DNA from: Imbricaverruca yamaguchii
Taxonomy: Eukaryota > Arthropoda > Thecostraca > Neoverrucidae
DNA: 64,000 bases
Direction of reading: 5' to 3'
Assembly: GCA_034440575.1 (NCBI GenBank)
Contig: JAOTOL010001614.1
Coordinates: 558,001 to 622,000 of the forward strand
The position numbers and the translations under genes are program-made. The notes under the pieces were generated by a model, which saw only the letters and a program-made list of their open reading frames with translations, was not told where the DNA came from and did not search any database. Below are positions 36,801 through 39,800 of the stretch, one piece after another; position 1 is the first letter of the stretch; each line of letters opens with the position of its first letter.

Positions 36801-39800
36801 AACACGTTGAAGAAACCGAACGCTATATTGGGCCGAAGGATATTAGTAAATTGACTGCACACCAGTTTCCGGTGACTACTCCGAGAGAGAGACATTGACA
36901 TGCAGCAATTGATAATTATGGTACTGACCAAGTACTAACAATAACGACAACGTTCGTCATACTGGTTCTGTGAGCATGGGTGTGCATATACAACAGCCTC
37001 CGCCACTTGAACAATCTGATATGTGTCACCCCTTGGGTCATAAATGGACATTTTAGTACTCTTCCGCAGTTCTTCATTTGCACACTTGCAAGCGAAGCAA
37101 CGCTACTGAGACAGCAGAGAAACTCTTAAATCATGAATTATTTCAATACACACGTCCACCGGAGGATTGATCAATTCTGAACGTGAACAGACGTCACCAC
37201 AAAATCTGCTGTGCCGTTACATGACAAGTTCATCCGTTTTCAGCGCAGTAAAATGCACAGCAACCTATCTGGCACACGACGGACTCGGAGGACCCTGCTA
37301 CCGTCCGGCTACCATCCGCATCTTATGTCCGACCACGTGCACGTCTGTCATGTGCAGTCCATCCGGACGTCCACGCACGGTCACAGCCGCAAGACGGCCC
37401 ACCCTTTCCGCCCACGGACGGATCCGGTTCCTTCGGCCATCGACAACGTTTAGTTTTATATTGCACTGGCGTTTCATGTGTTCCAGCTTGCCACAGCTGA
37501 AGTACTTGGCCTTGCTGAGCCACCGCGGGTCAGCTGACCGCGGCTGACCCAGTCAGCCGGCGTTTTTGTATGCACTAGCGCGTGCACAACAGAGGCACTG
37601 ACGCGCGCACGTGTCCTGGCTTGTCGCACGAGAGGCACGTGTCCTGGCTTGTCGCACGAGAGGCACGTGGCCTGGTTTGTCGCACGAGAGGAACGTGTCC
37701 TGGTTTGTCGCACGAGAGGCACGTGATCCGAGGCCTGTCCACCGCGACCAGGTCACCTTGGCGCTGCATAGAGCGTTCACGCTGTTGTTGTCTTCCTTCC
37801 CCCCCTCCCCCCAGGTTACTCGCCATAGTGTTCACACTGTTGTTGTCGCCCGTGCTGCAATTACTTGTCGCATTTGGTTCACCAGCATCTCTTCCAATGC
37901 CGCCGCGCACTTTACCACCTCCATGAGGGCAGGGTCGTCTCCATTTTCAGTCACTTTCTGCATAAGGCTCTGCAATGCAATTCCTCTCCATCCGGCTGTC
38001 TGGGCGCTACATGACCAAATTAGTCGATGCGCCCTAAAGCCCCAATAACTAACTAACTCCATCCGGCTGTGCACTGGTTCCGGAGATCGCGATCCACTCG
38101 GTTGGGCGAAAATGCACGTCTCCCGGCTATCACACTGTTGCCTCATGTACCTCCCCCTATGCACGCCCGGTAACCCAGACTGTCCATAACGGCCACTGCA
38201 CGTGGAAGGCATGTATTATGAAATAAATAAATATATAAATAAACATCACTCGTAAACGTGGAGGGAAATTATCACACTTCTTCCCTTCCGTTATGACAAT
38301 CTTGGAACTGGAGCATTTCGATCGTCACATTCCTGGTCGGGTAGACGCGCAGCGGCACCTTGTACGTGTTGCATACGCCGCTGTAGCAAGTGTCCAGCTC
38401 AGGCCAAGTACATACATACATCTCTTGAAACGTGCGGCAACACCGCACGTTTCCTGTCCTCGGTGATGCCCATGGCCTCCAGATGAACCTCCACACCACC
38501 TATGCACCTTCACACTACTGATCCATCGTTCAAAACCATCCACAAACCGCAACAGCTCGACGCCTGGGAGGATTCCCGCTTGCGTGTTTGTCTTAATCAG
38601 CTGGTCATGTAAACAAACAACAGCTGACTGATGACCGACTGTTGATGTCACAAGCCTAGCTATCGGGTCCAACTCGTCGCCATTTTCTCCACTATCGGCC
38701 ATCTTGCATTGATCCAAAATACGCGGTAGAGTTCGTTTTCTGGTCGCCAAGCATTGCGTCTCATTTTGTGATGTCTTCATTGTTGCTGGCGTCCAATCAG
38801 GAGCCCGTTAACGAACCATAAGAATGCTGTATTGGGCCGAAGCGTACGAGTAGATTGATTACATGTCAGCGTCCTAACGACTCCCTCGACGGACATACAT
38901 TGGCATGAAACTGATGACAAAATATCCATCACGTGCTAACTAATAACGACAGCTTCTACCATACGTTCTGCTTGCTTGAGTTTGAATCCAAAACAGGAAG
39001 TGCCCACGGCGCGGTGTAGAAAGTACCCACGGCACTGGGTGGACAGGACCCACGGCGCCGGGTGGACAGGACCCACGGCGCTGGGTGGACAAGACCCACG
39101 GCGCTGGGTGGACAGGACCCACGGCGCTGGGTGGACAGGATCCACGGCGCTGGGTGGACATGACCCACGGCGCTGGGTGGACATGACCCACGGCGCTGGG
39201 TGGACATGACCCACGGCGCTGGGTGGACATGACCCACGGCGCTGGGTGGACAGGACCCACGGCGCTGGGTGGACAGAACCAACGGCGCCGGGTGCTTTCA
39301 TCTCACCACTATCATTCATAGGATTGCAAAATTGCTTTGAATAGGGGCCGGAACTATGAACTACGGGGCACAAACCCAGTCCATTCAAAGCACCGCATAT
39401 GGTAGGGTCTTGATAGTCTGCACCAGCAAGGCGCCCATATCGATATTGATTGGAACCTCTTGACCCCGTCGAGCGGCTGTTAGTTTCAGGTGGGACTTTG
39501 CCAGGTGGGACCGTGTTTGCGTTGTACACATACATATGTACACATGTCCGGTGACACACATGCAGGTGATGGCACAAGTCGAGCCCAGTAGCTAACCCTG
39601 TGTCTCTCGTCTCCCAGTGAGACTGAGGATTGTTACACGTTCGATTTGTAGCAATGTTTTGTGGATCGGAGGGCAAGTTTCAGCTGACACCAAGTGATTG
39701 GCAATCTTACAATAAGGTTATTATAAAACGTGACGAACAGAGTGGCACGGCAGTGGCTACATTTGCACGAACCATTTTCCCGCAGTCATTGTGTCGAAAA

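Follow-up and report, generated by a model that had tools for sequence, protein, structure and literature searches.

At positions 38000..38056 of the window (the whole 64-kb stretch of Imbricaverruca yamaguchii DNA analysed here) lies one copy of a short repeated unit, whose copies of 37-60 bp are scattered on both strands. In element orientation the unit reads (C)TGGGCGCTACATGACC-NNNNN-AGTCGATGCGCCCTAAAGCCCAAATAAC(TAAC)n. Allowing up to three mismatches, the 16-mer GTYGATGCGCCCTAAA is found at 14 places in the window where 0.77 would be expected, a count reached in none of 100 shuffles. A sequence-only profile (R1) built from 14 copies, namely 11 short copies and the tails of three SINEs, was run with filters off and returned 17 matches at E ≤ 3.2e-4 in the 64 kb. 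Fourteen of these are the model copies themselves and were recovered by construction; the three outside the model lie at 53120 (-), 27033 (+) and 53045 (+). The next match stands at E 0.12 and the remaining ones listed at E ≥ 1.1. The scattered repeat described in an initial annotation of this DNA is real, and the unit is discrete as proposed there, with similarity among the 11 short copies ending at the unit borders. Copies flanked by target-site duplications (TSDs) occur at a density of about one per 6 kb in the window.

The short copies can be classed by their 5′ ends. The copy at 38000..38056 (+; R1 E 3.5e-16) belongs to a longer 5′ class, begins with CTGGGCGC, carries the tail AATAACTAACTAA and is bounded by a 14/14 TSD at 37986-37999 and 38057-38070. 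The same class includes 32362..32416 (+; E 2.8e-16; TSD 10/10), 49695..49747 (-; E 1.2e-13; TSD 13/14), 5900..5959 (-; E 8.2e-13; TSD 12/13), which has a variant tail, and the diverged copy 34325..34384 (-; E 5.4e-10), whose 3′ border is approximate and whose flanks align with a score of 12 over 25 nt, mismatches included. At 49576..49625 (-; E 2e-15; TSD 15/17) the trinucleotide CTG is common to TSD and element; given to the element, it moves the start 3 nt further 5′ and places the copy in the longer class. With that assignment the three most alike short copies (32362, 38000 and 49576, 91-95% identical) all have the longer 5′ form. Shorter 5′ ends are found at 40793..40835 (-; E 7.4e-13; TSD 17/17), 58212..58251 (-; E 2.2e-10; TSD 13/14), 63669..63710 (-; E 2.7e-7), where the TSD is weaker (score 10, gapped), and the diverged copy 36041..36077 (-; E 4.1e-5; TSD 16/18), while the copy at 42493..42541 (-; E 5.8e-10; TSD 13/14) starts 19 nt upstream of the GTC anchor. 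The sequence GGGTACC precedes the copies at 58212 and 63669, inside their TSDs (58212-58265 and 63669-63726), and may represent a few more element bases or microhomology at the 5′ joining.

Three further copies lack a clear TSD. The one at 27033..27073 (+; E 5.9e-5; no TSD) enters a (CA)n array on its 3′ side; across 27033-27190 the array is of the (CA/CG)n kind and looks like a microsatellite that grew out of the tail. The other two, at 53045..53080 (+; E 3.2e-4; no clear TSD) and 53120..53148 (-; E 1.6e-5; no TSD), belong to one cluster of short-unit fragments (53045-53182), which sits beside a facing tRNA-like head and SINE copy, the whole spanning 53045-53418.

A TSD was found at 11 of the 17 loci tested, with alignment scores of 10-17; the other six (1178, 36443, 27040, 53108, 61640 and 53035) scored 4-6. 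These 17 loci differ slightly from the 17 R1 matches, with 61640 included and the SINE at 53298 left out. No duplication is expected at the unit border for 1178 and 36443, because both are tails of longer SINEs. Extending the search to as far as 260 nt upstream yielded a weak TSD for the SINE at 1075 (TCAAGGTTA/TCAAAGTTA, score 7) and, for the other loci lacking a TSD, only untrusted scores of 6-10, the score of 10 (at 27036) falling in CA-rich simple sequence. The test was repeated on only the 11 positive loci, using windows fixed to the GTC anchor and chosen after the loci had been seen; under these terms a local alignment score of at least 10 was obtained at 11/11 loci, compared with 5.8% of 6000 loci drawn at random from outside tandem repeats and with 1.8% when flanks of different copies were paired (110 pairs). 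Against an unmasked null the 11 loci reached only p 0.05-0.10 each, and this null is uninformative because the tandem arrays of the window mimic duplications. Five of the 11 TSDs begin with CT, which could pair with an AACT tail.

Most of what the initial annotation had read from individual copies was reproduced. Its perfect duplications at 38000 (14/14), 40793 (17/17) and 32362 (10/10) were recovered, and the 11/11 duplication reported at 49692 (here 49695) is present as the core of a 13/14 match. The duplications vary in length as it had stated, measuring 10-18 bp in 10 of the 11 copies, the exception being the imperfect 25-nt match at 34325. Nine of its 12 listed positions carry a TSD (5900, 32362, 38000, 40793, 42493, 49576, 49692, 58212 and 63669), whereas 27036, 53109 and 61650 do not. 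Of these last, 27036 and 53109 match R1 (E 5.9e-5 and 1.6e-5) but have no TSD at the unit and no convincing one within 260 nt upstream, while the site at 61650, which reaches R1 only at E 2.8, is not supported. Absent from its list were the copies at 34325-34384 and 36041-36077, both with a TSD, and three SINE 3′ ends.

The borders of the unit were examined by comparing the 11 short copies pairwise without gaps, in 8-nt bins counted from the GTC anchor. Identity is 0.22-0.28 in all bins between 80 and 25 nt upstream of GTC, rises to 0.36-0.49 in the 5′ part of the element and to 0.85 at the core, and returns to 0.24-0.30 from +32 downstream. Flank identity is at background, and therefore no longer shared element surrounds the 11 short copies; copies of graded length running into a common upstream sequence were not seen in the 64 kb. 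The TSD-defined 5′ ends lie 15, 16, 17, 18, 19, 20, 22, 23, 23, 23 and 24 nt upstream of GTC, so that 11/11 fall within a single 10-nt zone (15-24 nt upstream), a zone and not a point. As listed they are nearly continuous; assigning the CTG of the 49576 copy to the element changes 20 to 23 and separates the ends into two groups, at 15-19 and 22-24. Under an even spread of 5′ ends so narrow a range would have p ~1e-4 for 10-40 nt, ~1e-6 for 10-60 nt and ~1e-10 for 10-140 nt. The upper limit of 24 nt is the robust part of the zone, because very short copies are harder to detect; longer ones are detectable by R1, which matches three SINE copies. This 5′-end pattern is unlike random truncation of a longer element.

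The ~50-nt module of the short copies also ends a longer, tRNA-headed SINE, present three times in the window by R1 and BLAST. The copy at 1075..1232 (+; R1 E 5.5e-9; BLAST) has approximate outer borders and a 3′ end, from 1178, homologous to the short unit. The family member at 36450..36567 (-; E 1.8e-8; no clear TSD) is apparently 5′-truncated and retains a B box and the same 3′ module, and the one at 53298..53418 (-; E 2.6e-5; BLAST) carries this module facing a tRNA-like head at 53195-53299 (+). A tRNA match was obtained with Rfam at 53203-53263 (+; 30.8 bits, gathering score 29, E 0.019), and a B box with 0-1 mismatch is present in all four sequences inspected, tRNA-like heads or SINEs. 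Rfam gives no match at E ≤ 1 for the SINE at 1075 itself, and ARAGORN predicts no tRNA in the whole window; the head of this SINE is called tRNA because it aligns by BLAST with this Rfam-matched segment, the BLAST matches of the copy being to the other SINE copies and to the head at 53196-53299. SINE tails and short units both carry GCTACATGA...GGTCGATG and AATAACC. Where most short copies read TGCGCCCTAAAGCCCNAATAAC, two of the SINE tails have TGTRTCKTAAAACCAATAACC, with which the third is in agreement over its extent, and the bases at the 5′ border differ as well. Judged by these sequence differences, the short copies do not appear to be simple truncations of the tRNA-headed SINE. The initial annotation had allowed that its copies might prove to be pieces of a longer conserved element: the 3′ module does end a longer SINE, but homology stops at the borders of the 11 short copies and the sequence differs consistently.

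No pol III promoter could be distinguished in the short copies. With at most one mismatch, an A box is found in 3/11 and a B box in 3/11, both together in one (36041), and random 57-mers contain them at 30% and 17%, respectively, so that the boxes are not above chance. The unit also encodes nothing, and the earlier description of it as autonomous-looking does not hold. The (AACT)n-type tail proposed at the same time is supported: an AATAAC tail is present in six of the 11 short copies and a variant in a seventh, and in four the tail is unrecognisable. Allowing up to two mismatches, AATAACTAACTAAC occurs four times against 0.31 expected, one of the four being a SINE tail.

Folding of seven copies suggests that the short unit likely forms a hairpin. 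The five with the longer 5′ end fold into a hairpin whose closing stem pairs GGGC(GC) with GCGCCC-type partners; the two shorter ones cannot form it. Single-copy fold z-scores range from -0.56 to -2.87 across the seven, and RNAalifold found no consensus pair in the copy alignment. Two inner helices, which are hand-drawn and mutually exclusive, were compared with 500 shuffles; the proportion of cells paired was 85.5% (shuffles 81.2%) in one fold and 80.0% (71.3%) in the other, and the covariation scores were 0.234 (0.181) and 0.289 (0.178). There was no excess of pairs altered on both strands of the helix, a count equalled or exceeded by 220 and 75 of 500 shuffles for the two folds, or of pair types (315 and 180 of 500). 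Exchanges were observed from G-C to A-U at columns 17/30 and from A-U to G-C at columns 13/26. Support for the predicted hairpin is thus mixed.

Taken together, these observations favour, at a probability of roughly 0.58, a model in which the family consists of headless, tail-only retroposons, made of a 3′ hairpin and a (UAAC)n tail and mobilised by a LINE. Their full size would be ~53-60 bp, and copies of 37-50 bp would be short of a few bases at the 5′ end or in the tail. In this model the RNA would consist of the hairpin with the (UAAC)n tail behind it. The 3′ end of this short RNA would be recognised by the protein of a LINE resident in the genome, which would nick the target, prime on the tail and copy the RNA as far as the 5′ end; the duplications left behind are mostly 10-18 bp long. 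Because the tRNA-headed SINE uses the same 3′ module, a single LINE lineage, or a set of related LINEs, probably serves both families. The repeats, their borders, duplications and tail and the homology with the SINE 3′ end are observed; the RNA intermediate, the LINE partner, recognition through the hairpin and a discrete short RNA template are what we infer. The LINE-mediated target-primed reverse transcription put forward in the initial annotation fits the variable TSDs and the simple-repeat tail, and its standing is likewise that of an interpretation. Clients of a stringent-type LINE, a type whose ORF2 protein binds the 3′ stem-loop of its own RNA (PMC4176376), are marked by the features met with here: TSDs of varying length, a tail of simple repeats, a hairpin (likely in this case) near the 3′ terminus, and a terminal module in common with a tRNA SINE. 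The stricter proposal, a self-contained retroposon of ~57 nt with one hairpin, a primer-pairing tail and no promoter of its own, is advanced tentatively, at slightly less than even odds; a discrete RNA of ~57 nt is favoured by about two to one over LINE copying that stops near the hairpin base.

The most serious competitor, though a less likely one, explains the copies as 3′ ends of a long LINE (or of an unseen longer SINE) that were dead on arrival; its reverse transcriptase would tend to stop after the hairpin, so that insertions would have a common 5′ border with no short RNA involved. Truncation at the 5′ end is common among LINE copies, the module appears to be built like the 3′ end of a stringent LINE, the border of the longer-5′ copies adjoins the base of the predicted hairpin, and the 5′ ends form a 10-nt zone instead of a point. 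Against this, none of the 11 short copies extends beyond 24 nt upstream and nothing outside the unit is shared, a stop after copying the hairpin, not before it, would be odd, and no LINE was found among the 150 reading frames scanned. Origin by 5′ truncation of the window's own tRNA-headed SINE accounts for the clear homology over the 3′ ~50 nt, but truncated copies should then begin at points scattered over the ~100 nt of SINE lying upstream, and the TGTRTCKTAAAACCAATAACC versus TGCGCCCTAAAGCCCNAATAAC difference in the tails and the distinct 5′-border bases make this improbable.

Two other origins fare worse. A DNA transposon of very small size, or something akin to a MITE, would also be short and non-coding, and the longer copies contain the inverted repeat GGGCGC/GCGCCC; this repeat is not at the 3′ end, however, and with TSD lengths that vary and a simple-repeat tail such an origin is very improbable. 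In favour of chance similarity, or of spread as tandem repeats instead of by transposition, are the many tandem arrays of the window (61 TRF rows), which mimic TSDs when left unmasked. This reading is disfavoured to the point of being barely credible, given that 0/100 shuffles reach the observed count, that E values descend to 2.8e-16, and that the copies are dispersed on both strands amid unrelated flanks with a TSD signal that survives masking.

Set beside known systems, the headless, tail-only retroposons proposed here have variable TSDs and a simple-repeat tail, as classical SINEs do, but have no RNA polymerase III head (tRNA, 7SL or 5S). SINEs measure roughly 80-500 bp, and the size and headlessness of the short family are unusual. 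With MITEs it has in common that its members are very short, non-coding and numerous, and it differs in having a simple-repeat tail and neither terminal inverted repeats nor a fixed TSD length. It resembles 5′-truncated LINE copies in the kept 3′ end, the TSDs and the shortness, and differs from them in that all 11 of its 5′ borders fall in one 10-nt zone. The 3′ end of the short family is common to a second, tRNA-headed SINE within the window. Comparable features, namely a 3′ module with simple-repeat tail, variable TSDs and dispersed copies, are found in tRNA-derived SINEs with a LINE-shared 3′ end, such as HAmo SINE (PMC2873951); in contrast to these elements, the short family is without head, boxes and body, at 37-60 bp in total. 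The 3′ tails of stringent LINEs, to which ORF2 binds (L2-clade LINEs of zebrafish; PMC4176376), resemble the unit in build, with a stem-loop (predicted in the unit) beside a short 3′ tandem repeat; the 150 window frames scanned contain no LINE.

If the stricter proposal is correct, the lower size limit for passengers of target-primed reverse transcription would move down to this family, which would also be a natural minimal substrate for LINE recognition. Should the unit be a discrete RNA, a 3′ hairpin and tail alone would be enough for a LINE to spread it to high copy number, with no need of a pol III head, and the family would amount to a natural experiment on minimal 3′-tail recognition. 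Units so short could easily escape repeat annotation. No SINE-like family so short appears among the titles and abstract openings listed from the open-licence PMC literature, and the passages searched of two barnacle papers (PMC8270832 and PMC8917513) make no mention of SINEs.

Several other identities were considered and set aside. The 11 short copies have no Rfam match in a window scan at E ≤ 5, nor do 37980-38080 and 49570-49760 scanned alone; 58140-58320 scanned alone gave a sole match of 8 bits, far below the gathering score, and a known ncRNA was accordingly rejected. A small self-cleaving ribozyme (twister or HDV-like) has no match at E ≤ 5 in the window or at E ≤ 3 in 37980-38080 alone. 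A tRNA gene as insertion site of the copy at 58212 was suggested by the look of the flank, by eye only; ARAGORN finds no tRNA at this rejoined site or at eight other rejoined insertion sites. Reverse transcriptase and endonuclease domains are absent from the 150 longest of 396 low-repeat reading frames (at least 60 aa). In viral_contigs, a viral and prokaryotic collection in which absence says little, an exact 20-mer of the unit has no match; a single gapped-pattern match there (14.4 bits, E 0.001, 25/55 model positions), with no further 5′ part and no tail, was judged to be chance. The SINE body pattern has no match in viral_contigs and two in genome_contigs, likewise a viral and prokaryotic collection, where R1 finds nothing.

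The surrounding sequence is itself repetitive. The 61 TRF rows reflect many tandem repeats, some rows describing the same array, and G+C content rises from 0.41-0.45 on the left of the window to 0.52-0.65 on the right. A ~360-bp repeat occurs in tandem and as separate blocks on both strands (9311-11521, 21748-22732 and 24501-25715; 72-84% alike), and a dispersed pair of 208-bp repeats (15760-15967 and 41440-41647) is 84% identical and contains several TGACC motifs. Among the 150 reading frames scanned are a carbonic anhydrase domain and two MATH matches. A BTB domain or exon of SPOP/roadkill type is encoded at 35336-35776 (-), and its matches make an arthropod host most likely; among the best 120 of its 663 matches, the closest is an ENA protein at 98%, followed by matches covering 72-82% of the query at 89% to Popillia japonica and 82% to Ixodes pacificus and Glossina austeni, with named vertebrate matches lower at 54-71%.
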